Origin: Streptomyces pyxinae
Lineage (GTDB): Bacteria > Actinomycetota > Actinomycetes > Streptomycetales > Streptomycetaceae
Assembly (NCBI RefSeq): GCF_024756275.1
Contig: NZ_JANUGQ010000026.1
Coordinates: forward strand, 1 to 64,000
Direction: 5' to 3'
DNA: 64,000 bases
The notes below the pieces were generated by a model. That model did not search any database and was not told the DNA's origin. It saw only the letters and a program-made list of their open reading frames with translations. This document shows positions 74 through 9,871 of the stretch, piece after piece; the stretch's first letter is position 1, and each line of letters opens with the position of its first letter. A program made the translations under genes and the position numbers.

Positions 74-523
74 TCAGCCGGTGAGCCGGTGGCCGTCGTG
101 GGCGCGTACCTGCGGGGCGCCGCCGGTCAGGGCGTCGGTGATGCGGACCGCGTAGACCTCGCCCATGGTCGCGGTGACCTGATCCGGGGCAAGCCACTCG
201 ACGGCGGTGGCTTCGTCGGTGGGGTGCTCGTGCCCGCTCTCAGGAGTGCAGCGGAAGACCAGAGCGACGACGCCCAGGGCCATGTTCTTGTAGACCCCGG
301 TGAGCCGATCGACTCGTACCTTCACGCCGGTCTCTTCGTAGACCTCCCGGCGTACGCCGTCCTCCACCGTCTCGTCCCGCTCCAGCACGCCACCGGGCGG
401 TTCCCAGGTGCCGTTGTCCGCCCTGCGGATCGCCAGGACCCTGCCGTCCTCGCGTACGACGACACCGGCGACCGACACCGAGTGAAGAGGCGTTGACGTG
501 CTCTGCGACCGGCTGTTACTCAT
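74..523 (-). CDS. NUDIX hydrolase of the integrative element
   Basis: A 149-residue NUDIX hydrolase, expected to cleave a nucleoside diphosphate linked to another group in a Mg-dependent way. The Nudix box (G-x5-E-x7-REV-x-EE-x-G-V) is complete at residues about 45-67. It is transcribed away from the GntR repressor gene, with only 30 bp between the two starts. A copy of the element's palindromic operator covers its start codon, so it is probably repressed by the same regulator. NUDIX genes next to the regulator are a known feature of pSAM2-type elements; the substrate cannot be told from sequence. Confidence 0.9.
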   Translation of the reverse strand: MSNSRSQSTSTPLHSVSVAGVVVREDGRVLAIRRADNGTWEPPGGVLERDETVEDGVRREVYEETGVKVRVDRLTGVYKNMALGVVALVFRCTPESGHEHPTDEATAVEWLAPDQVTATMGEVYAVRITDALTGGAPQVRAHDGHRLTG

Positions 524-533
524 GTACAGGAGA
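518..533. promoter_or_regulatory. Operator copy 1 (ACTCATGTACAGGAGA)
   Basis: A 16-bp sequence with the left half identical to the perfect palindrome at 1422-1437. It lies between the divergent NUDIX and GntR genes and overlaps the NUDIX start codon. By position it is a likely binding site for the adjacent GntR protein, allowing autoregulation. Confidence 0.6.
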
Positions 534-553
534 ATAGGAGCACCAGAAGGACT

Positions 554-1333
554 ATGGCGAGCGATGGCACGGCCTCTTCGGCCAAGGCGAAGTATCTTCA
601 GATCGCGGACGATCTAGCGGCGCAGATCCGCTCCGGAGTGCTGGCCCCTGGGGACTCGGTTCCCAGCGAGGCTGAGCTTATGGACCGGTACAAGGTGGCG
701 TCGGGCACGGTCCGCAAAGCGGTCGCTGAACTTCGTACGACTCAGTTGATCGAGACCCACCACGGCCGCGGATCGTTCGTGCGGTCTCGTCCCCCGGTGC
801 AGCGCAAGTCTTCCGACCGTTTCCGCCGCGCTCACCGGAAGGCCGGCAAGGCCGCGTACCTGGCAGAGGCCGAGCAGTCGGGAGGTGTGCCCTCGGTCAA
901 CGTGCTGTTCGTCGGACCGGTGGACGCCCCGGCGGAGATCGCTGAGCGGCTGGAGCTCCCGGAGGGTGCCAAGGTGCTCGCGCGGAAGCGTCGCTACTTC
1001 CGGGGCGGCGTGCCGACCGAGGAAGCCACCTCGTATCTGCCCTGGGACGTGGTGAAGGACATCCCGGAGATGTTCGCGGAGAACCCGGGCGGGGGCGGCA
1101 TCTACGCCCGCCTGGAGGAGCACGGGCACGTGCTGGCTGAGTTCACCGAGACGGTGCGGGCCCGGCTCGCCAGCAAGGCCGAGGGGTCGGCACTGGCCCT
1201 CAGCCCCGGCGCCCCCGTCTTCCACCTCGTCCGGAATGCCGCCGACGCGGCCGGCAGGGTGGTCGAGGTCTGCGACACGATCATGGCTGCTGACCAGTTC
1301 GTCTTGGACTACCGGTTCGCCGCCGGGGACTGA
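554..1333 (+). CDS. GntR-family repressor, KorSA-like, with UTRA domain
   Basis: A 259-residue regulator with an N-terminal GntR winged helix (residues about 12-78; YLQIADDLAAQI and a typical PSEAELMDRYKVASGTVRKA recognition region) and a C-terminal HutC/UTRA ligand-binding domain (about 95-250). In pSAM2 the GntR protein KorSA represses the activator gene pra and its own gene; this protein has the equivalent place at the regulatory end of the element. Three copies of a shared 16-bp operator flank it (518-533, 1386-1401, 1422-1437), which fits repression of itself, the NUDIX gene and the downstream transfer genes. The UTRA domain suggests an effector, unknown here. Confidence 0.9.
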   Translation: MASDGTASSAKAKYLQIADDLAAQIRSGVLAPGDSVPSEAELMDRYKVASGTVRKAVAELRTTQLIETHHGRGSFVRSRPPVQRKSSDRFRRAHRKAGKAAYLAEAEQSGGVPSVNVLFVGPVDAPAEIAERLELPEGAKVLARKRRYFRGGVPTEEATSYLPWDVVKDIPEMFAENPGGGGIYARLEEHGHVLAEFTETVRARLASKAEGSALALSPGAPVFHLVRNAADAAGRVVEVCDTIMAADQFVLDYRFAAGD

Positions 1334-1385
1334 CGCCGCTTCGCCTTCCGCAACCCGTCGCAAGATTCTTTTTCGCGGCGGGTTG

Positions 1386-1401
1386 ACTCATGTATAGGAG
1401 T
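1386..1401. promoter_or_regulatory. Operator copy 2 (ACTCATGTATAGGAGT)
   Basis: An imperfect palindrome matching 14 of 16 positions of the perfect copy at 1422-1437, with centres 36 bp apart. It lies downstream of the GntR gene and upstream of the transfer gene cluster. Confidence 0.6.
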
Positions 1402-1418
1402 GGGTAACTCTTAATCGC

Positions 1419-1440
1419 GTCACTCATGTACATGAGTGAC
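1419..1440. promoter_or_regulatory. Operator copy 3, perfect 22-bp palindrome
   Basis: A perfect inverted repeat of 22 bp whose core is ACTCATGTACATGAGT (1422-1437). It ends 28 bp before the start codon at 1469, well placed to overlap the promoter of the transfer genes. It is the best of three copies of the same motif and the likely primary site of the GntR repressor. Confidence 0.7.
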
Positions 1441-1468
1441 GGAGACCGTCACTTCTACAGGAGGACCC

Positions 1469-1801
1469 ATGCCTTCCTTCAAGGTGGACACCTCGACAGC
1501 TGTGGTGTTCGTGGCCACGGCGCCGGTGCCGAAGCTGGTGAGTAAGCAGACGGGTGAGCGGGCGATGGACCGGGAGACCGGTGCGGGCCTGTCCACGGTG
1601 GGTCTGCTGATCTCGGACGAGGGTGAGGGGAACCTGTACCAGGTGACCGTGCCGGAGACCGGGCTGCCCGAGGGTCTGGCGCCGGGGACGCCGGTGTCGG
1701 TGATCGGGCTGAAGGCGCGGGACTGGGAGAACACGTTCAACGGCCAGGCCCGGCACGGGATTTCATTCCGCGCGGTCGCCGTGACACCGGTCGGGGCCTG
1801 A
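1469..1801 (+). CDS. Small conserved element protein upstream of the translocase
   Basis: A 110-residue protein I do not recognise by name. The start at 1469 is chosen because AGGAGG lies 6 bp upstream; an in-frame upstream codon at 1436 would start inside the operator. The sequence is predicted mostly beta (VVFVATAPV, LYQVTVPETG, TPVSVIGLKA), with no membrane segment. Its length and pattern would be compatible with a small OB-like or DUF961-like fold seen in conjugative elements, but this is a guess. Three bases separate it from the translocase gene, so the two are probably co-transcribed from the operator-controlled promoter. Confidence 0.75.
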   Translation: MPSFKVDTSTAVVFVATAPVPKLVSKQTGERAMDRETGAGLSTVGLLISDEGEGNLYQVTVPETGLPEGLAPGTPVSVIGLKARDWENTFNGQARHGISFRAVAVTPVGA

Positions 1802-1804
1802 GCC

Positions 1805-3151
1805 ATGACGGACCTGACGACGTTACTGGAGATCGCCGCCCCGCTGGCCGGTGCGGGAGGTCTCGGATACGCGAAGGTGCGGGCGCCGCGTGTGTACTGG
1901 CCCCTGGTCGGGCTCCCGGCGGCCTGGACCCGCTTCGGCCTCTCCTACCGGTCCACGATGGACGTGTGCGGGCTGACGGTGCAGCCTTCGCGGCTGCGGG
2001 CGTTCATGGTCCGCAATGTCGCCCGCCGCCGCGATGTGCAGCCCGTGCCGCCGAAGGTGCGCCGGGTGCGGGGTTCTGCGACCGGGATGCGGGTCACCCT
2101 GCGTCTGCCGGCCGGTCTGGAACCCGCCGACATCGCCGCCGCCTCCGAACGGCTGCGCCACGCCTTCGGCGTCCACTCCGTCCACGTCTTCGAGACCCGG
2201 CCGGGCTTCGTGGAACTGCGGATGACCGGCTACGACGTGCTGCGCCGGGTGAAGATGCCCCGCCGCCGCCCCTCGGGTCCGGTGACGGTCGCGGTGGCGC
2301 TGCGGGAGGACGGCACGGCCTTCGTCCGCGACTACCGCAAGGTCCCCCACGCGCTGACGCTGGGGGCGAACCAGTCGGGCAAGTCGATGTATCAGCGCAA
2401 CCTCATCGCCGGGCTGGCCCGGCTCCCGGTGGCTGTGGTGGGTATCGACTGCAAGCGCGGTGTCGAACAGCGCGGCTACACCCCGCGGTTGTCGGCGCTG
2501 GCGGTCACGCCGGATGAGGCGTCCGGGCTGCTGGATGCCCTCGTGGCCATGATGGAAGAGCGCTTCGATCTGCTCAGTGAGCACGGTGCCGCCGATCTGT
2601 GGGCGCTGCCGGTGAAGGTCCGTCCCGTGCCGGTGGTGGTGCTGGTGGACGAGGTGGCCGAGCTGTTCCTGACCGCCGCGAAGAAGGACGAGGAGCGCCG
2701 GGACCGGATGGTGTTGCAGATGATCCGGCTGGCGCAGATGGCCCGCGCGGTCGGCATCTATCTGGAGGTGTGCGGCCAGCGCTTCGGCTCCGACCTGGGC
2801 AGGGGCGCCACCATGCTCCGCGCCCAGCTCACCGGCCGGGTGGTGCACCGGGTCAACGACAAGCAGACCGCCGACATGGGCCTGGGCGACATCGCCCCCG
2901 ACGCCGTGATGGCCGTCACCGCGATCCCGCCCGACCGGCCCGGCGTCGCGGTGGCCGGTGACTCCTCCGGCGGCTGGTCGCGCATCCGTACCCCGGAGAT
3001 GACCCCGGCCGAAGCCGTCGCCATCTGCCGCCAGTACGCCCACCTCACCCCGCGTCTCCCGGCCCTGGCCCCGTTCCGGCCCGCCGTGCCCGCCGACACC
3101 CTGCCGGCCGATCCCTCCCCGCTGGTCACGGCTTTCCCGTCCACCGACTAG
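1805..3151 (+). CDS. FtsK/SpoIIIE-type conjugal DNA translocase (TraB/TraSA-like)
   Basis: A 448-residue motor ATPase that should pump double-stranded element DNA into the recipient, the single-protein transfer mode of Streptomyces plasmids and AICEs. The P-loop GANQSGKS is at residues 187-194 and the Walker B stretch VPVVVLVDEVAEL at about 275-287. The N-terminal region (GAGGLGYAKVRAP, then YWPLVGLPAAW) is weakly hydrophobic, as in membrane-attached Tra proteins. Codon 7 is TTA (1823-1825), extremely rare in Streptomyces and decoded only by the bldA tRNA, so translation may be limited to later development. It follows the operator-controlled small gene by 3 bp. Confidence 0.93.
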   Translation: MTDLTTLLEIAAPLAGAGGLGYAKVRAPRVYWPLVGLPAAWTRFGLSYRSTMDVCGLTVQPSRLRAFMVRNVARRRDVQPVPPKVRRVRGSATGMRVTLRLPAGLEPADIAAASERLRHAFGVHSVHVFETRPGFVELRMTGYDVLRRVKMPRRRPSGPVTVAVALREDGTAFVRDYRKVPHALTLGANQSGKSMYQRNLIAGLARLPVAVVGIDCKRGVEQRGYTPRLSALAVTPDEASGLLDALVAMMEERFDLLSEHGAADLWALPVKVRPVPVVVLVDEVAELFLTAAKKDEERRDRMVLQMIRLAQMARAVGIYLEVCGQRFGSDLGRGATMLRAQLTGRVVHRVNDKQTADMGLGDIAPDAVMAVTAIPPDRPGVAVAGDSSGGWSRIRTPEMTPAEAVAICRQYAHLTPRLPALAPFRPAVPADTLPADPSPLVTAFPSTD

Positions 3152-3283
3152 TCCCCGCGCGGCTCCGGCGGAAGCAACCGCATCGCGTCCCGTCTGCCCG
3201 GCACCGGCGCTGTTCCCAATGTCTGATCGGGCTCGCCTGCCCGCAACGAACAGTTCTCTCCACTTCACCGCGAAGGAACAACT

Positions 3284-3985
3284 GTGATCTATACCGGAAT
3301 CGCCACCCGTGAGGGCACCGCCCTCGACAACGCTGACGCCGCTCGCGTCCACACTCTGGCGAATGGCACCGTCGGCGCGGCCCTCATCGATGGGATGGGC
3401 CACGGCCCCCGCACGTCCGCCACCGCCCCTCTCCTGGCTGAGACTGCCGCCAGGATCTCTGCCCGGCGTAGCCCCCTCTCCGGGCTTCTCACCGCCTCCG
3501 AGCTGATCGCAGACCCGGGCCCGGACGGCGAGGAGGCCGACGCTGTTGCGGTTACCGTCCGCATTCGCCCCAGTGACGCTGTGGCGGTCGTCAACTGGAC
3601 CGGTGACACCCGCGCCTACGGATGGAACGGCGATCGACTGGAGCTGTACACCGACGACCACACGGTCGGGGCCCAACTCCGAGCCAATGGCGTTGCCTTG
3701 GAAATCGCGCGGGAGCACGACAACTGGTTGCGCACGACTCTGGCTCGGGCGACGGTCGGCACGGTCTACACCGCTGGGATCTGCGACCACCTCATCGTCC
3801 TGACCTCCGATGGCGTTCACGATCAGGTTCCGGCCGCTGTGCTGGAAGCTCTCGTCCGCGAACATGCTGCCGCCCCCCAGGCCCTCGCAGACGCCCTCGT
3901 CGCCGCTGCTCGTACGGACGAGGATGGGTACCGCGACGACGCCACTGCGTTGGTTCTCCTTGTCGTCCCTCCCGTCACCTCCTGA
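3284..3985 (+). CDS. PP2C-family protein phosphatase
   Basis: A 233-residue stand-alone PP2C (PPM) phosphatase domain that would remove phosphate from Ser/Thr residues. The metal-binding motifs are visible: DGMGHG (residues 36-41), WTGDTRAY (about 105-112), SDGVHDQV (175-182) and YRDDAT (216-221). There is no membrane or sensor segment. A 132-bp gap separates it from the translocase gene, and a similar gap precedes the DUF2637 gene. Its role in a mobile element is unknown; it could act on host or element phosphoproteins during excision or transfer. Confidence 0.88.
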   Translation: MIYTGIATREGTALDNADAARVHTLANGTVGAALIDGMGHGPRTSATAPLLAETAARISARRSPLSGLLTASELIADPGPDGEEADAVAVTVRIRPSDAVAVVNWTGDTRAYGWNGDRLELYTDDHTVGAQLRANGVALEIAREHDNWLRTTLARATVGTVYTAGICDHLIVLTSDGVHDQVPAAVLEALVREHAAAPQALADALVAAARTDEDGYRDDATALVLLVVPPVTS

Positions 3986-4050
3986 TCCCTGCTTCTGCTG
4001 GCGCTGGCTAGCTCCCGGCACCGGCCTTCCCGGAAAGGGAGGTGACCATC

Positions 4051-4722
4051 GTGTTTCGCGCATTCCGCATCGATCCCGTGCTGGTTCAAGCCGCCATCGC
4101 CGGTGCCCTGTCGTTCGCGCACCTGCATGACCTGGCTGAAGCCGCCGGGCAGGACGGGTGGAAGGCGTGGGCCTACCCAGTCAGTGTGGATCTGCTGCTG
4201 GTCGCGGCCTGGCGGCGGATGCGCAAGGACGCCGACAACCGCGACGCCTGGCTGTGGTTCGCCATCGCCCTGGCCGCCTCGCTCGGTGCCAACATCGCCA
4301 CCGCCGGACTCCTCGACCTCAAAGCCGTCCCAGCCTGGCTGCGCATCCTCGTCGCCGGATGGCCCGCCCTGGCCTTCCTCGGCGGCACCCTCCTCGCCCA
4401 CACACCCACACCCGCCGAACCGGATCCCGAGCCGACGCCCGAACCGGACCCGGCACCTGCGCCGGACATGGTGGTGGACCGGGTTCTCGACCCGGCTCCG
4501 GAACTCCTGCCGGCCGGTCCGCCCGCGGCTGCTGAACGGGCGCCCGCCCCGGTGGCAGCTCCGGCTTCGGTGCCGGTGCCTCCGGCCCTGCTGGACCACG
4601 CCCGCAAGATCGCCGCCGCTCACCAGGCCCGGACCGGCACACCGATCGAGCCGGACACACTCCGCGCCCACCTCGGCATCCCCGCCCCGCTCGCCCACTC
4701 CATCGCCGCGCAACTTGCCTGA
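4051..4722 (+). CDS. DUF2637 membrane protein of AICE transfer region
   Basis: A 223-residue protein of the DUF2637 family, common in Streptomyces conjugative elements. Hydrophobic helices occupy roughly the first 120 residues, including AWLWFAIALAASLGANIATAGLL and AWLRILVAGWPALAFLGGTLL. A Pro/Glu/Ala-rich linker follows and then a C-terminal soluble segment with a helix-turn-helix look (LLDHARKIAAAHQARTGTPI). The GTG at 4051 is preferred because a near-perfect Shine-Dalgarno (AAGGGAGGTGA) ends 5 bp before it. Likely part of the membrane apparatus for transfer or intramycelial spread. Confidence 0.85.
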   Translation: MFRAFRIDPVLVQAAIAGALSFAHLHDLAEAAGQDGWKAWAYPVSVDLLLVAAWRRMRKDADNRDAWLWFAIALAASLGANIATAGLLDLKAVPAWLRILVAGWPALAFLGGTLLAHTPTPAEPDPEPTPEPDPAPAPDMVVDRVLDPAPELLPAGPPAAAERAPAPVAAPASVPVPPALLDHARKIAAAHQARTGTPIEPDTLRAHLGIPAPLAHSIAAQLA

Positions 4723-4739
4723 TTAGGAAGGTGGTTGAT

Positions 4740-4928
4740 GTGTCCCGCCCGAACCGCTTCCGCGACGTGATCCGCATCGGCCCGGTGCAGATCGGCACCC
4801 ACCACGACGGCCGGGGCCGCGACCGGCACACCGCCGCGTGCACCGCGCCCGGCTGCGGCTTCTCCGCCGACTACCCCGACCGCTCCGGCGCGGAACTCGC
4901 CGCCCGGACCCACCGCTGCACCCCCTGA
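4740..4928 (+). CDS. Mobile element transfer protein (62 aa)
   Basis: A small basic protein of the family annotated in Streptomyces elements as mobile element transfer protein, with the pattern RIGPVQIGTHHDGRGR and spaced cysteines (CTAPGCGF ... HRC) that could bind a metal. The GTG at 4740 follows AGGAAGGTGG; an in-frame GTG at 4731 lies inside that ribosome site. It sits 17 bp after the DUF2637 gene in the transfer/spread cluster. Exact molecular role unknown. Confidence 0.8.
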   Translation: MSRPNRFRDVIRIGPVQIGTHHDGRGRDRHTAACTAPGCGFSADYPDRSGAELAARTHRCTP

Positions 4929-4941
4929 AAGGAACCCCATC

Positions 4942-5262
4942 GTGCTCACCCCGAAGTACCCGGCCCCGGACACCGCCCCGGCGGTCCGTCCACCCGACAC
5001 CACCACCATCCCGACCGCCCCGGTCGTCCCCGCCCCGGGCCCGGCGCTCGTGCCGGCCACGGCCGCGGCGTCGTCGCGGCCGGTCATCCGGCTCACCCCC
5101 GCCGCGCTGGCCGGGGCGGTGGCCGGTGGCACCGCCGTCGTCCTCGTCGTCGGCGCGGTGCTGGTCTCGATGCTCCTCGCCGTCGCGGTCACGGCCGCCT
5201 CGGTCGCCCTGTGTGCCGTGGTCCTGCGCTCCCTGCTCGCCCAGCCCGGCAAGGGCAGGTGA
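4942..5262 (+). CDS. SpdD-like spread membrane protein
   Basis: A 106-residue protein with a Pro/Ala/Thr-rich N-terminal half and one or two strongly hydrophobic stretches at about residues 53-95 (VVLVVGAVLVSMLLAVAVTAASVALCAVVL). This layout matches the SpdD-type spread proteins of Streptomyces plasmids, small membrane proteins needed for movement of the element along septate hyphae. It starts with GTG 13 bp after the previous stop, behind AAAGGA, and its stop overlaps the next gene (GTGA), showing translational coupling. Confidence 0.8.
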   Translation: MLTPKYPAPDTAPAVRPPDTTTIPTAPVVPAPGPALVPATAAASSRPVIRLTPAALAGAVAGGTAVVLVVGAVLVSMLLAVAVTAASVALCAVVLRSLLAQPGKGR

Positions 5263-5822
5263 GCGGCGTGGACCTGCCCGCGATCACCGCCGCCTTACCC
5301 GCCCTCGGCTGGGCCGTCCACAGCAGTGTGCTCGGCCGCCGTCTGGCCCGGGCCCGGCGCGATCCGCTCACCGGCCTGCACACCCGCGCCGGATGGACCA
5401 CCCGCGCCGAACGCATCCTGGCCACCTGCCCGACCGCGCTGGTGGTGCTGGTGGACCTGGACAAGTTCAAGACCATCAACGACACCTGGGGCCACGCGAC
5501 CGGTGACGCCGTACTCGCGGCGACCGCCGCCCGCCTGTCCGCCTGGTGCGGCCGTGCCGGCATCCCCGCCCGCCTCGGCGGCGACGAGTTCGCTGTCGTC
5601 ACCACCCGGGCCCTGGACGTCAGTGCCCTCACCACCATGCTCCAGCAGCCTGTGCCCGTCGCCGGGACGCTCGTTCCGGTCGGCGCCTCGGTCGGCTTCT
5701 GCCACCGCGCCCGCCTGCCGCTGCCATCCCTGACCGACGCCCTGTCCGCCGCCGACACTGCGATGTACCGGGCCAAGGGCCACGGCCGCCGCAACCACCA
5801 CCCCGCTGAAAGGAACCGCTGA
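5259..5822 (+). CDS. GGDEF-domain diguanylate cyclase on the element
   Basis: A 187-residue protein that is almost only a GGDEF domain, expected to make cyclic di-GMP from two GTP. The hallmarks are intact: DPLTGLHTR (35-43), DLDKFKTINDTWGHATGD (66-83), RLGGDEF (105-111) and AADTAMYRAKGHGRRN near the C-terminus. The RxxD inhibitory site expected just upstream of the signature is absent (GRAG instead), so product inhibition is probably lost. No sensor or membrane domain is seen. The GTG at 5259 overlaps the previous stop (GTGA). Codon 13 is TTA (5295-5297), implying bldA control. Diguanylate cyclases are known on other conjugative elements such as the SXT family. Confidence 0.9.
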   Translation: MSGVDLPAITAALPALGWAVHSSVLGRRLARARRDPLTGLHTRAGWTTRAERILATCPTALVVLVDLDKFKTINDTWGHATGDAVLAATAARLSAWCGRAGIPARLGGDEFAVVTTRALDVSALTTMLQQPVPVAGTLVPVGASVGFCHRARLPLPSLTDALSAADTAMYRAKGHGRRNHHPAERNR

Positions 5823-6061
5823 TGGGCCTGTTCAACCGCAAGAAGGACACCACCCCGGCCAACCCCGCCATGGCCGAGCTGGGCCGTGAGTTCGCCATCG
5901 CCCGCCGCCACGGCGACCGCAAGACCATGCGCCGCATCGGCCGCGAGTACATGAACGGCGCCTCCACCGAGGCCGACGCCGCCTCGTTCCAGCAGGGCCA
6001 GGACGCCTACGACGCCCTCCCGCCCATCAACCCCCCGCGCCGCAACCAGCGCCGCCGCTGA
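5822..6061 (+). CDS. Small hypothetical element protein (79 aa)
   Basis: A highly charged, soluble 79-residue protein starting MGLFNRKKD and ending in a basic tail (PPRRNQRRR). The middle is helical (AMAELGREFAIARRHGDRKTM). Its ATG overlaps the GGDEF stop codon (TGATG), so it is coupled to that gene. The N-terminus resembles that of the small protein at 6769 (MGIFRRRDDD), suggesting that the two are distant duplicates or share a targeting motif. Function unknown. Confidence 0.75.
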   Translation: MGLFNRKKDTTPANPAMAELGREFAIARRHGDRKTMRRIGREYMNGASTEADAASFQQGQDAYDALPPINPPRRNQRRR

Positions 6062-6066
6062 CGGCC

Positions 6067-6106
6067 CCCGGGGCGGCCTCGGTCGCCAAACTTCCGCCGC
6101 CCCGGG
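6067..6106 (+). terminator. Hairpin with perfect 11-bp arms inside the element operon
   Basis: The arms CCCGGGGCGGC (6067-6077) and GCCGCCCCGGG (6096-6106) flank an 18-nt loop, six bases after a stop codon and before the next small gene. No T-run follows, so it may be a weak terminator, an attenuator or an RNA-stabilising element. Confidence 0.45.
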
Positions 6107-6154
6107 CGCCTGGACCCCCATCAGATCCGAAGGACCCGAAAGGGAACCCCCATC

Positions 6155-6331
6155 ATGCCCCAGACGCCGACCACCTGTGTCTGCTCCCACTGCAACGGCT
6201 TCGCAATCGTCCGGATCACCACCGGCACCACGCCGGACGGCCACCACCTCACCCTGCCCGCCGCCTGCCCGGCCTGCCACGGCACCGGCCACACCACCAC
6301 CCGGACCACGGTCAAGGCGGTGGCGAAGTGA
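6155..6331 (+). CDS. Tiny Cys-rich zinc-finger-like protein (58 aa)
   Basis: A 58-residue protein with two cysteine clusters: CVCSHC at residues 8-13 and CPACHGTGH about 25 residues later, the latter like one repeat of the DnaJ zinc finger (CxxCxGxG). This suggests that it binds zinc. It begins with ATG behind AAAGGGA and its stop overlaps the next start (GTGA). Similar tiny zinc proteins are frequent between spd and rep genes of AICEs; the role is unknown. Confidence 0.72.
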   Translation: MPQTPTTCVCSHCNGFAIVRITTGTTPDGHHLTLPAACPACHGTGHTTTRTTVKAVAK

Positions 6332-6570
6332 AGCACATGGCGGTCTCGGCCCACATCGAGCCGGACACCCACTACGAGGTCACCCCGTTCCCGGGCCCCA
6401 ACTCCTTCGTCAGCCTCCGCGTCGGTGACGGGCTCTTGGCCCTCGCCCTGATCGCCCCGGCTGGTTCCGCCGACGCCCTGCGCGCCCTGGCCACCGCCGC
6501 GACCGAAGCCGCCGGCACCCTGGACGCCCTCACCATCCGGGACGGCTCGGAGGTGACCGGCCGTGACTGA
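6328..6570 (+). CDS. Small hypothetical element protein (80 aa)
   Basis: An 80-residue acidic protein with an alternating strand pattern (SFVSLRVGDGLLALALI) followed by a helix (ADALRALATAATEAAGTLDAL). The GTG start overlaps the previous stop by four bases; an in-frame ATG at 6337 is an alternative. The end overlaps the next gene by 8 bp. It is common in the AICE small-gene cluster and I do not recognise a function. Confidence 0.65.
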   Translation: MKHMAVSAHIEPDTHYEVTPFPGPNSFVSLRVGDGLLALALIAPAGSADALRALATAATEAAGTLDALTIRDGSEVTGRD

Positions 6571-6769
6571 CCTCACCCCCACCCCCGACCGCCCGGGCCT
6601 GCACATCAGCAAGCCGTCCCCGACCGCCACGGCCACCGCGTCCGCCGTCTGCCACTGCGGCGCCTCCGCGACCGCCACGGGTGACGCACAGGTGAGCGCC
6701 CTGATGGCCGGATGGGACACCGCCCACAGTTCCGCTCACACCAAGAGCACCGACGGGGGGACTCTCTGA
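6563..6769 (+). CDS. Small hypothetical element protein (68 aa)
   Basis: A 68-residue Thr/Ala/Ser-rich protein starting with GTG behind GGAGG. It has two close cysteines (VCHCGAS), perhaps a metal site. It overlaps the gene before it by 8 bp and the next start codon by one base (TGATG), so it belongs to the same coupled series. Function unknown. Confidence 0.6.
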   Translation: MTDLTPTPDRPGLHISKPSPTATATASAVCHCGASATATGDAQVSALMAGWDTAHSSAHTKSTDGGTL

Positions 6770-6975
6770 TGGGGATCTTCCGTCGCCGTGACGACGACGT
6801 TCAGGCCGCCGTCGACCGGGCCAAGCGGGAGGCGTTGGAGAAGCGCTGGCAGGACTACGCGCACTACGAAAACAACTGCCCCGGCCCCGGACGGGAGAAG
6901 TCCGAGAAGCCTTCGGGCTCCCCGCAGGCGGCGTGCGCCGACGCGAACACTCCTCGCGGAAGGCGCCGCCGGTGA
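6769..6975 (+). CDS. Small charged element protein (68 aa)
   Basis: A 68-residue protein starting MGIFRRRDDD, helical and highly charged (VDRAKREALEKRWQDYAHYE), with a basic C-terminal tail. Its ATG overlaps the previous stop and its stop overlaps the GTG of the replication initiator (GTGA). The N-terminal motif resembles that of the protein encoded at 5822. Position directly before rep could point to a replication accessory role, but nothing in the sequence proves it. Confidence 0.6.
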   Translation: MGIFRRRDDDVQAAVDRAKREALEKRWQDYAHYENNCPGPGREKSEKPSGSPQAACADANTPRGRRRR

Positions 6976-8375
6976 CCGACTCCGCCACCATGGCGGGCCT
7001 GGACCCGGCCACCCTCAGCGACCTGCTGCGGGTGGCCGGGGCTCCCGGCTTCGACCGCCTTCACGAACAGATCCGCCGCACCGGGGGATGCGCCGCCCCC
7101 ATCCGGCTCTCCGGCGGCACCAAGACCCTCGACCCGGCCACCCGGACCCTGCTGCACGCCTACACCACCGACGCCGAACCCGGCGGGGTCCTGCGGGTCG
7201 CGTGCGGCAACCGACGGGCCTCCCGCTGCCCGGCCTGCGCCTGGACCTACGCGGGCGACACCTACCACCTCATCCGCGCCGGACTCACCGGCGACCCGGC
7301 CAAGGGCACCCCGCACACCGTGCGCGACCACCCCCGCGTCTTCGCCACCCTCACCGCCCCCAGCTTCGGCCCCGTCCACAACCGGCCCGGCACCCGCCCC
7401 TGCCGCTGCGGCACTCGCCACCCCGAGGACGCACCCGAACTCGGTACCCCCATCGACTCCGGCACCTACGACTACGCGGGCGCGGTGCTGTGGAACAACC
7501 ACGCCTCCGACCTGTGGCGCTACTTCACCATCTACCTGCGCCGCGAGATCGCCGCCCGCGCCGGGCTCACCCAGAAAGCCGCCCGCGAACAATCTCGCGT
7601 CTCCTTCGGTAAAGTCGCGGAGTACCAGCGCCGGGGCGCCGTGCACTTCCATGCGGTCATCCGCTTCGACGGCCCCGAAGGACCCGACACTCCGCCGCCC
7701 TCCTGGGCCACCCTCCAGCTGCTCACCGACGCCATCCGGGCCGCCGCCGCCCGCGTCCGCGTCACCGTGCCGGCCGACCCACGCCACGAACTCGCCAGCG
7801 GCTGGGGCCTCCAGTGGGGCGACCAGATCGACGTCCAGCCCATCGCCGCCTTCGGCTCTGGAGAGGACCTGACGGAACAGGCCGTGGCCTCCTACGTCGC
7901 CAAGTACGCCACCAAGGCCGCCGAGACCACTGGGGCCGTGGACCACCCGGTCGGCAACAAGGAAGCACTGGTGCTCCTGGACGTGCCGGAGCATCCCCGG
8001 CGGCTGATGGAAGCCTGCATGGACCTCGACCCTGCCTACCCGAACCGACGGCTGCGGGCCTGGGCCCACATGCTCGGCTTCCGGGGCCACTTCTCCACCA
8101 AGTCCCGCGCCTACTCGACCACCCTCGGCGCCCTCCGCCAGACCCGCGCCGACTACCGCGCCGCCCAGCAACGCGCCGCCCTCGGCCTGCCCGACCCCGA
8201 CGACCATACCGAGACAACCGTCCTCGTCGTCGCCCACTGGTCCTACGCCGGACACGGCCACACCCCCGGCGAGTCCTGGCTCGCCGCCAACGTCCGCCGG
8301 GACCTCCAGGACAACCGCGAACACGCCCGGGAATATCACGCCCAGTTCGCAGCCTCAGCCGAGGAGGAGTGGTGA
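6972..8375 (+). CDS. RepSA-like rolling-circle replication initiator
   Basis: A 467-residue protein resembling RepSA of pSAM2, which nicks the double-strand origin and starts rolling-circle replication after excision. An HUH-type metal motif (HFH, residues 225-227, in AVHFHAVIRF) and the catalytic tyrosine region YVAKYATK (Tyr308 and Tyr312) are visible. A cysteine pair (RCPAC, about 85-89) and CRC near residue 144 suggest a zinc site in the N-terminal region. The GTG at 6972 is chosen because it overlaps the previous stop; an upstream in-frame start lies inside the previous gene. It is followed by the excisionase gene, as in pSAM2 (rep-xis-int). Confidence 0.88.
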   Translation: MTDSATMAGLDPATLSDLLRVAGAPGFDRLHEQIRRTGGCAAPIRLSGGTKTLDPATRTLLHAYTTDAEPGGVLRVACGNRRASRCPACAWTYAGDTYHLIRAGLTGDPAKGTPHTVRDHPRVFATLTAPSFGPVHNRPGTRPCRCGTRHPEDAPELGTPIDSGTYDYAGAVLWNNHASDLWRYFTIYLRREIAARAGLTQKAAREQSRVSFGKVAEYQRRGAVHFHAVIRFDGPEGPDTPPPSWATLQLLTDAIRAAAARVRVTVPADPRHELASGWGLQWGDQIDVQPIAAFGSGEDLTEQAVASYVAKYATKAAETTGAVDHPVGNKEALVLLDVPEHPRRLMEACMDLDPAYPNRRLRAWAHMLGFRGHFSTKSRAYSTTLGALRQTRADYRAAQQRAALGLPDPDDHTETTVLVVAHWSYAGHGHTPGESWLAANVRRDLQDNREHAREYHAQFAASAEEEW

Positions 8376-8377
8376 TC

Positions 8378-8581
8378 ATGGCCGTACGTCTGCTCACCGT
8401 GGAACAGGTCGCCAGCCTGCTCGGCACTTCCGTGCGCTTCCCCCGGAGGCTGATCGAGGAACGGCGCATCGCCTTCGTCAGGGTCGGCCGGCATGTCCGC
8501 ATCCCGGAGCCGGTGATCGAGGCATACATCGAGACCCACACCGTCCCGCCCGTCGAGCGCCGGTTCAGGGCGGTGGGCTGA
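8378..8581 (+). CDS. xis: Excisionase, MerR-like HTH
   Basis: A 67-residue helix-turn-helix protein with the pattern LTVEQVASLLGTS ... RRLIEERRIAFVRVGRHVRIP typical of excisionases. It should bind near the attachment sites and steer the integrase toward excision. The strong ribosome site GAGGAGGAG lies 8 bp before the ATG, overlapping the end of the rep gene. Its stop overlaps the integrase start (TGATG), so both are made together. Confidence 0.87.
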   Translation: MAVRLLTVEQVASLLGTSVRFPRRLIEERRIAFVRVGRHVRIPEPVIEAYIETHTVPPVERRFRAVG

Positions 8582-9726
8582 TGGCGAACCGCAAGGGACG
8601 GCGCCGCCGCTTCGGCAGCGTGCGACAGCTCGCCTCCGGCCGCTGGCAGGCGCGGTACCGCGATCCGCTGACCGCCGAGATGAAGTCGGCGCCACGCACC
8701 TTCGACACCAAGACCGACGCCGACGTGTGGCTGACCACGATCGAGGCGGAGATCGTGCGGGGGACCTACCAGGCCCCGGACGCCGGAAGGGTCGCCTTCG
8801 GGCCGTACGCGGACGACTGGCTGAAGCACCGGAAGCTGGAGGACCGCAGCCGGGAACGGAACGAGAGCGTGATCCGGCTGCACATCAAGCCGACGTTCGG
8901 GGCCGGGACGGTGGCCGCCATCTCCACGCCTCGGGTCAGGGCCTGGCGTACCGGTCTGCTGGAGGCCGGCGTGGGTGAGCCGACCGTGGTCAAGGCGTAC
9001 CAACTGCTGCGGGCGATCCTGAACACCGCCGTGGACGACGAGCTGATCCGCCGTAACCCTTGCCGGATCAAGGGCGCCGACCGCTACGACGTGCCGGAAC
9101 GGCCCGTGTTGACCGTGCCGGAGGTGTACGCGGTGGCCGACGCCATCCAGCCGTGCTACCGGCTGCTGGTGCTGCTCGCCGCGTTCACCACGCTCCGGTT
9201 CGGTGAGCTGGCCGCGCTCCGGCGCCGGGACCTCGATCCGGTCCGCTGCGTCGTCCTGGTCCGCCGCGCCCAGTCGGAGTTGCAGAACGGGCAGCTGAGC
9301 GACAAGGCGCCGAAGTCCGCCGCCGGCATCCGCCCGGTGGCCTTCCCCGCCGAACTCGTCCCGGAGGTGGACCACCACCTGGAGCACTTCGCCGGGGCCG
9401 GGCAGGACGGCCATGTGTTCCGCGGCCCGCGCGGCGGACTGCTGCGGCGCGGCAACTTCCGCGACGACTGGAGCGCCGCCCGGGACAAGGCCGGCGTCCA
9501 CGCCGGTGTGCACTTCCACGATCTGCGGCATACCGGCAACACCCTCGCGTCCAGCGCCGGGGCCAGCACGCGCGAGCTGATGACCAGAATGGGGCACAGC
9601 ACGACACGGGCCGCGCTGATCTACCAGCACATGACCAGCGACCGTGACCAGCACATCGCGGGCAGGCTCGGGGAGATGATCCGCCGTAGCCGGGAGACCG
9701 GCGATCCGCCGCCTTCTGGCACGTAG
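8581..9726 (+). CDS. int: Tyrosine-recombinase integrase
   Basis: A 381-residue tyrosine recombinase that integrates the element into a tRNA gene. An N-terminal core-binding (SAM-like) domain spans about 70-165 and the catalytic domain about 175-355. Active-site residues are present: Arg206 (TTLRFGEL), His312 and Arg315 (HDLRHT), His338 (MGHS) and the nucleophile Tyr347 (ALIYQHM). The gene ends 72 bp from the 3' end of tRNA-Thr, the usual arrangement of int next to its attachment site. Confidence 0.95.
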   Translation: MANRKGRRRRFGSVRQLASGRWQARYRDPLTAEMKSAPRTFDTKTDADVWLTTIEAEIVRGTYQAPDAGRVAFGPYADDWLKHRKLEDRSRERNESVIRLHIKPTFGAGTVAAISTPRVRAWRTGLLEAGVGEPTVVKAYQLLRAILNTAVDDELIRRNPCRIKGADRYDVPERPVLTVPEVYAVADAIQPCYRLLVLLAAFTTLRFGELAALRRRDLDPVRCVVLVRRAQSELQNGQLSDKAPKSAAGIRPVAFPAELVPEVDHHLEHFAGAGQDGHVFRGPRGGLLRRGNFRDDWSAARDKAGVHAGVHFHDLRHTGNTLASSAGASTRELMTRMGHSTTRAALIYQHMTSDRDQHIAGRLGEMIRRSRETGDPPPSGT

Positions 9727-9790: not shown

Positions 9791-9797
9791 CGTCGTG

Positions 9798-9871
9798 AGC
9801 CCCCTGTCGGGTTCGAACCGACGACCCCCGCTTTACAAGAGCGGTGCTCTGGCCAGCTGAGCTAAGGAGGC
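9798..9871 (-). tRNA. tRNA-Thr (anticodon TGT)
   Basis: A complete cloverleaf on the minus strand. The acceptor arm pairs GCCTCCT with AGGGGGC (one T-G wobble); the D-arm is GCTC/GAGC; the anticodon stem CCGCT/AGCGG holds the loop CTTGTAA with anticodon TGT; the T-arm is GTCGG-TTCGAAC-CCGAC. The CCA end is not encoded. The 3' end faces the integrase gene, so the 3' part of this gene is the likely attachment (attR-side) core of the element, with a duplicate expected at its left end outside the window. Confidence 0.95.

Follow-up and report, generated by a model that had tools for sequence, protein, structure and literature searches.

The first 64,000 nucleotides of contig NZ_JANUGQ010000026.1 of Streptomyces pyxinae (hereafter the window) open with what its gene content identifies as an actinomycete integrative and conjugative element (AICE) of the pSAM2 type, at positions 74–9726 beside a tRNA-Thr gene. 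Two genes of this element, tra, which encodes an FtsK/SpoIIIE-type translocase, and a gene for a GGDEF-domain protein, each carry a TTA codon close to the start. The corresponding UUA codon is read by the bldA tRNA, linked in earlier studies to host development, and the question raised by the locus is whether these codons are incidental or place the element under host control. A preliminary description of the window had read them as possible bldA gating of conjugation, and the comparisons with related elements reported here indicate that the TTA codons probably do reflect such gating.

TTA codons in the window and across the element gene families

The tra gene (1805–3151, forward strand; 448 aa; TraSA-like) matched PF01580 (E = 1.4e-29), a domain that marks its product as a putative FtsK/SpoIIIE translocase for double-stranded DNA transfer; the TraB equivalog model NF041214, which has a cut-off of 800 bits, gave only 44. 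From position 1805 the gene reads ATG ACG GAC CTG ACG ACG TTA, and direct codon reading thus confirmed the TTA previously placed at codon 7 (1823–1825). The GGDEF gene (5268–5822, forward strand, with an alternative start at GTG 5259; PF00990, E = 1.6e-29) had been credited with a TTA at codon 13. The codon does lie at 5295–5297 and is the thirteenth when counted from GTG 5259, but it is more likely codon 10, because relatives place the start at GTG 5268: ATG or GTG stood at the column of this GTG in all 45 aligned distinct genes (ATG in 35, GTG in 10), and nothing was aligned with GTG 5259 in 20 of the 45. The window protein has the GGDEF motif, present in all 46 family genes, and the fuller D-x-D-x-F-K-x-x-N-D / GD pattern, present in 35 of them, and on these sequence features its product is a putative diguanylate cyclase. 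A simple pattern search detected no RxxD inhibition site in the 46 family members. In-frame reading of the other element genes of the window, including xis (8378–8581) and a small open reading frame (ORF) at 4731–4928, revealed no further TTA, as had been claimed.

A second GGDEF copy occurs in the same genome (5787–6320 of locus L202, G000:C28:34000-46000), with TTG at the TTA column. No other element gene of the window was matched in the 12 kb of this locus, a tRNA hit lies nearby (C28:40450-40523), and the gene is apparently an orphan copy without TTA.

Relatives were drawn from 80 named loci, the best 80 of 306 confirmed, together with loci from genus and phylum searches and fetched stretches, for a total of 233 sources including the window, many of them not long enough for the full gene set. 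Nucleotide sequences that were identical entered the counts a single time, and matches below a minimum length were dropped; truncated near-copies may remain. With the own genome included, 302 of 392 genus genomes contained relatives of tra at E ≤ 1e-80, and 46 of 392 contained relatives of the GGDEF gene at E ≤ 1e-40. At E ≤ 1e-50, tra was detected in 11 of the 396 genomes of the phylum sample, all of the same genus and none outside it. A distant relative (49%) was present in a Nonomuraea record and lacked TTA, a single case, as no other relative from outside the streptomycetes was read. The element in a record labelled Microtetraspora glauca (L076) was nested deep among Streptomyces tra genes; either the strain is mislabelled or the element was transferred recently.

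Over distinct sequences, the window being one of the sources, TTA occurred in the tra (101/170), GGDEF (41/46) and rep (48/134) families. By contrast, none was found in the korSA-like gntR (0/120), pra-like (0/168), DUF2637 (0/171), TM (0/61), nudix (0/28) and xis (0/38) families, in the small ORF families o5822 (0/30), o6337 (0/10) and o6563 (0/37), or in the phosphatase gene (0/1), and single cases were seen in int (1/71, in a copy other than that of the window) and o6155 (1/102). The Fisher P-value was below 1e-9 for each of 12 gene-family pairs, kinship being ignored. Taking each TTA-bearing alignment column as one origin gave 25 origins for tra, GGDEF and rep together, which have a leucine share of 53.6%, and 2 for all remaining element genes (binomial P = 1.4e-5), columns being alignment-dependent. 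Genome-wide, 1.7–3.4% of genes carry TTA in three species (PMC6662830), and the number of such genes per genome is given as 51–505, with a mean of 177 (PMC10327506). The occurrence of TTA in tra and the GGDEF gene is far beyond chance and, because the codon is confined to few element genes, with the regulator, pra-like, xis and nearly all int genes free of it, its distribution is targeted rather than compositional. A count of this kind over related AICEs had been proposed in the preliminary description, as had the idea that TTA sits in exactly the transfer motor and the second-messenger gene; that holds in the window, whereas in relatives rep is a third such gene.

The share of tra genes with TTA was 50/57 at ≥78% identity to the window tra, 35/78 at 70–78%, 10/25 at 58–70% and 6/10 at 40–58%. 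Of the 101 tra genes with TTA, 81 had it within the first 20 codons, as did every one of the 41 such GGDEF genes, and only one tra gene in 170 had two. Within rep it recurred mainly at codons 74 and 388 (RepSA relatives among the 80 named loci), and it was commoner where tra also had TTA (26 of 41 elements with rep) than where tra had none (3 of 24). In plasmid records, all with annotation by others, FtsK genes had TTA at codon 9 (S. formicae, where rep has one at codon 361), at codon 46 (NBC_01635) and at codon 151 (a record described as Streptomyces sp. NL15-2K and labelled Kutzneria). The 27.8 kb S. formicae record (NZ_CP071873.1) contains an AICE-like unit repeated every 10,384 bases, either a concatemer or an assembly artefact.

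Codon position within the genes and competing explanations

In a first set of 110 tra rows, column 7 held TTA in 33, CTG in 9, CTA in 1 and a non-leucine codon in 67. TTA occurred in 78 of these genes, one a gene, at codon 7 (33), codon 14 (43) or codon 271 (2). A tree computed without the first 24 codons recovered a clade of 53 tra genes including the window (Shimodaira–Hasegawa-like approximate likelihood ratio support 99), every one of which had exactly one TTA. This clade split into 26 genes with the codon-7 TTA (support 92), among them the window, and 27 with the codon-14 TTA (support 96). Outside it TTA comes and goes: four states require 11 changes on this tree of 97, and seven states require 23 on a tree of 135. 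The sister genes L130 and L132 (support 100) have TTA at codons 14 and 7, respectively, the TTA of L132 being aligned with TGG in L130, and the near relatives L218 and L252 also differ in TTA position (support 98). In the GGDEF family, TTA occupied a main column in 36 genes and a column two codons later in 5, never both. Absence of TTA from the orthologues of close relatives had been named beforehand as evidence against gating; instead, the codon is kept there or has moved by a few codons within the gene.

Across the 46 distinct GGDEF genes, window included, the main column held TTA in 36 of 38 rows with leucine. Its 2 codon changes in 38 leucine rows (5.3 per 100) were fewer than in any of the 22 other leucine columns (median 17.7 per 100, range 6.5–35.3). 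Zero-change counts obtained for rows chosen by their TTA depend on that choice and carry no weight here. At codon 7 of tra, TTA was found in 27 of 40 leucine rows among 135 genes of at least 70% identity, window included. The third bases around the early TTA vary among relatives, every TTA trinucleotide within codons 2–20 is in frame (78/78 in tra, 41/41 in GGDEF), CTA is hardly used in that interval (2 in tra, 1 in GGDEF), and the codon swaps position. What is conserved is, on these sequence patterns, the codon, neither the residue nor a DNA motif. Selection maintains TTA in a large part of the family, a stronger case than was open to the preliminary description.

Other explanations of the codons have to be set against gating. 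Many TTA genes of islands, and TTA codons of mobile Streptomyces genes, have been read as poorly conserved foreign leftovers (PMC1934918, PMC10327506), and the two codons could accordingly be functionless, un-ameliorated accidents of an AT-rich ancestry. The codon does occur in variable regions: it made up 15 of 5058 leucine codons across 160 predicted genes of the flanks, and 5 of 1261 across 44 host genes of the window. This baseline comes from a crude gene caller, which picks the most distant start. However, the GC content at third codon positions is 0.92 in the window tra and 0.90 in the GGDEF gene, and the adjacent genes of the same elements are TTA-free, and on these grounds a foreign origin was rejected. 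The conservation and re-placement of TTA within the gene, the confinement of tra matches at E ≤ 1e-50 in the phylum sample to the own genus and the lack of TTA in the Nonomuraea relative speak in the same direction, which leaves this explanation very improbable. A generic ramp of slow codons, or a relaxed mRNA structure at the start, for which any rare or AT-rich codon would serve, would suit the early position of TTA in most tra and GGDEF genes, in what by eye appear to be hydrophobic stretches, and the known bias of TTA toward gene starts in Streptomyces (PMC4255298). Indeed, with TTA left out, the AT content at third positions of tra is 0.179 in codons 2–20 against 0.105 in the rest. In GGDEF it is 0.076, below the 0.092 of the rest of the gene, and the TTA of rep never falls within the first 20 codons; a ramp was rejected on the scarcity within codons 2–20 of CTA, another rare codon, with its 2 and 1 occurrences against 78 and 41 for TTA. 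The tra start has a predicted energy of -35.9 with TTA and -32.7 to -34.9 with the five synonyms, all of which are predicted to make it slightly less stable, so that the codon would not serve for loosening; the GGDEF start gave a mixed picture (-47.2 with TTA, -45.6 to -51.9 with synonyms). Relaxed start structure was rejected on these energies, and an explanation of this type is very unlikely overall.

That TTA acts as a DNA or RNA signal, be it an operator, a cleavage site or an antisense stop, rather than as a codon, is extremely improbable. The complementary TAA at 1823 and 5295 does terminate long antisense ORFs, but such ORFs are frequent in this GC-rich window, and CTA, which would supply the stop TAG, is hardly used. 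The variable flanking bases, the shift of the site between columns and its occurrence only in frame within codons 2–20 likewise led to rejection of a motif or antisense stop. A possible though doubtful alternative is that TTA serves mainly to limit the dose of a toxic tra (Kil) product and of rep, developmental timing being a by-product. SCO3932, the korSA homologue, resisted deletion, a possible kil role was suggested for the traSA homologue SCO3934 (PMC8584621), and TTA is found in tra and rep and is missing from xis, korSA-like, pra-like and all but one int gene, as such a safety lock would have it. On its own, however, the lock leaves the TTA of the GGDEF gene unexplained, and it implies timing as well, because a single UUA limits the dose only when its tRNA is scarce.

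Several observations weigh against bldA gating. TTA is absent from 69 tra genes out of 170, from 86 rep genes out of 134, that of the window included, and from 5 GGDEF genes out of 46; three loci (L098, L215 and L094) had none in any tra, rep or GGDEF gene read, and L123 has lost it from GGDEF and kept it in tra. Columns 7 (4 changes in 40 rows) and 14 (18 in 100) of tra lie within the range of other leucine columns in their rate of change, since clades lacking TTA belong to the family as well. Shared ancestry makes row counts overstate independence, and in distant plasmids TTA is also found at codon 186 of a helix-turn-helix regulator, codon 44 of an AIPR gene and codon 6 of a recombinase, which speaks against a strict restriction in those records. 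Some TTA genes are translated without bldA, ccaR of S. clavuligerus being a reported example.

Gating by bldA is nevertheless favored by the conservation and targeting of TTA and by the presence of a host tRNA-Leu(UAA) gene (441–523 of locus L150, anticodon taa); no second TAA anticodon was found in the 15 + 30 tRNA loci inspected among 67 hits, the anticodon of L151 being unclear. Since 69 of 170 tra genes lack the codon, gating appears common, not universal, and it is in this respect that the earlier reading has to be narrowed. Overall, bldA-dependent translation of the transfer and second-messenger genes and, in relatives, of the replication gene is probably under selection.

A proposed mechanism of gating

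Under bldA gating, the AICE would subject both tra, which may have a Kil function, and its small diguanylate cyclase to translational control by the bldA product, the tRNA-Leu(UAA) of the host. A single early UUA would stall translation until this tRNA is available, the replication initiator of relatives would often be gated as well, and the TTA-free repressor, pra-like, xis and, nearly always, int genes would be left ungated. Lower translation without the bldA tRNA would couple transfer to a developmental or stationary stage, and it is rather likely that TTA gating times conjugation in nature. The element may thus have a double lock, with transcription controlled via KorSA/Pra-type regulators and translation via bldA. 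We infer this from the presence of the tRNA gene and from four reports: translation of rmdB, a TTA-containing gene for a cyclic di-GMP (c-di-GMP) phosphodiesterase, is bldA-dependent, based on TTA-to-CTG fusions (PMC7026642); the c-di-GMP receptor BldD binds near or in bldA (PMC7026642, PMC4255298); pocks formed by AICEs reflect a sporulation delay in the recipient mycelium (PMC9513070); and the traSA homologue has the possible kil role mentioned above, under the KorSA homologue (PMC8584621).

A more tentative extension, which we regard as unlikely, is a loop between the element and the host clock, in which the bldA tRNA licenses Tra and the cyclase, and c-di-GMP acts via BldD and feeds back on bldA. 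The cyclase, in which the simple pattern search found no RxxD site, would raise c-di-GMP, which via BldD (reported at bldA, and controlling adpA) would keep the mycelium vegetative and transfer-competent. The sign of the feedback on bldA is uncertain, given that bldA transcription is lower in an S. ghanaensis bldD mutant (PMC7026642). If true, such a loop would make the transfer window self-limited and would account in molecular terms for the sporulation delay that appears as pocks.

TTA codons of mobile genes have so far been read as leftovers; here a widespread family often keeps and re-creates a single TTA in tra, in addition to those in rep and GGDEF genes. This suggests that AICEs read a developmental checkpoint of their host, and the timing of AICE movement in the life cycle becomes testable by one synonymous codon change.

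Gene content of the element and comparison with known systems

The window is the start of its contig, in a genome of 7.38 Mb in 78 contigs, and the left end of the element falls outside the contig. The gene series comprises a NUDIX gene, korSA-like and pra-like regulators, the translocase, a SpoIIE-like phosphatase, a DUF2637 protein, a small hydrophobic protein, the GGDEF gene, small ORFs, repSA, excisionase and integrase. The Pif-like NUDIX hydrolase (74–523, reverse strand; PF00293) precedes the KorSA-like GntR/UTRA regulator (554–1333, forward strand, as are the Pra-like, DUF2637, repSA, xis and int genes below; PF00392, PF07702) and the Pra-like regulator of the SCO3933 family (1469–1801; NF051478, 140.8 bits, cut-off 80). 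The latter lies directly upstream of tra, with its stop at 1801 and the tra ATG at 1805. KorSA, Pra and TraSA are named here after the homologies given for SCO3932–3934 (PMC8584621), and the korSA-pra-tra order is that reported for these genes. Farther downstream lie the DUF2637 membrane protein gene (4042–4722; PF10935), repSA for the replication initiator (6972–8375; NF041486, 793.5 bits, cut-off 700), xis for the excisionase (TIGR01764), the frame of which is open, and int for the tyrosine integrase (8581–9726; PF00589). The tRNA-Thr(TGT) gene adjoining int (9797–9871, reverse strand; ARAGORN) is likely the attachment site, and int, xis and this tRNA gene are all present.

A SpoIIE/PP2C-like phosphatase gene (PF07228) lies at 3284–3985, between tra and the DUF2637 gene. 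A match of at least 150 residues was obtained in the window only, out of the 233 sources, and its third-position GC content is lower, at 0.77; it is probably recent cargo. An 18-base sequence with the core ACTCATGTAYA.GAG occurs three times around the GntR gene (515–532, 1383–1400 and 1419–1436), one copy lying inside a perfect 24-base palindrome (1418–1441). The three copies are likely candidate operators of the KorSA-like regulator.

Conserved TTA genes have been surveyed at 11 sites in PMC10327506 and in Table 2 of PMC4255298; in the available parts of these sources none was annotated as transfer, FtsK or RepSA, some being merely ATP-binding or hypothetical, and the terms FtsK and conjug were absent from the main text of PMC10327506. 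The main texts of two AICE papers (PMC3218068, PMC9513070) did not contain TTA, bldA or GGDEF, and a term search of PMC8584621, on the SCO3929–3937 remnant, returned neither TTA nor bldA. The accessible portions of PMC2000904 and PMC11836424 held nothing on conjugative elements, and that of PMC1934918, for pSAM2 together with bldA, nothing on gating. A 2026 phage paper suggested, without a test, that phage TTA genes tie infection to growth on solid medium (PMC13350457, in part). The open-licence literature offered nothing joining an AICE with the TTA codon or with a diguanylate cyclase; priority is unproven, subscription literature such as Chater and Chandra 2008 lying outside this scope.

Among known systems, adpA and other TTA genes of the bldA regulon likewise keep UUA across species, and adpA needs the bldA tRNA (PMC4255298, PMC10327506). 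The listed regulon genes are mostly chromosomal with a fixed TTA, whereas here mobile genes for transfer, replication and c-di-GMP synthesis are concerned, and the codon moves within the gene. The amf/ram (SapB) clusters also retain TTA at a varying place, in a ramR-like or the ramC gene (PMC4255298), but in that chromosomal cluster the shift is from gene to gene, and in the conjugative element it also occurs from codon to codon inside a single gene. Like the putative cyclase, rmdB encodes a c-di-GMP enzyme and has a TTA, for which bldA gating was shown (PMC7026642), yet it is a host phosphodiesterase and not a cyclase on a mobile element. In gene content, pSAM2 and the SCO3929–3937 AICE remnant share korSA, pra, traSA, repSA and pif-type genes with the element described here (PMC8584621, PMC3218068).

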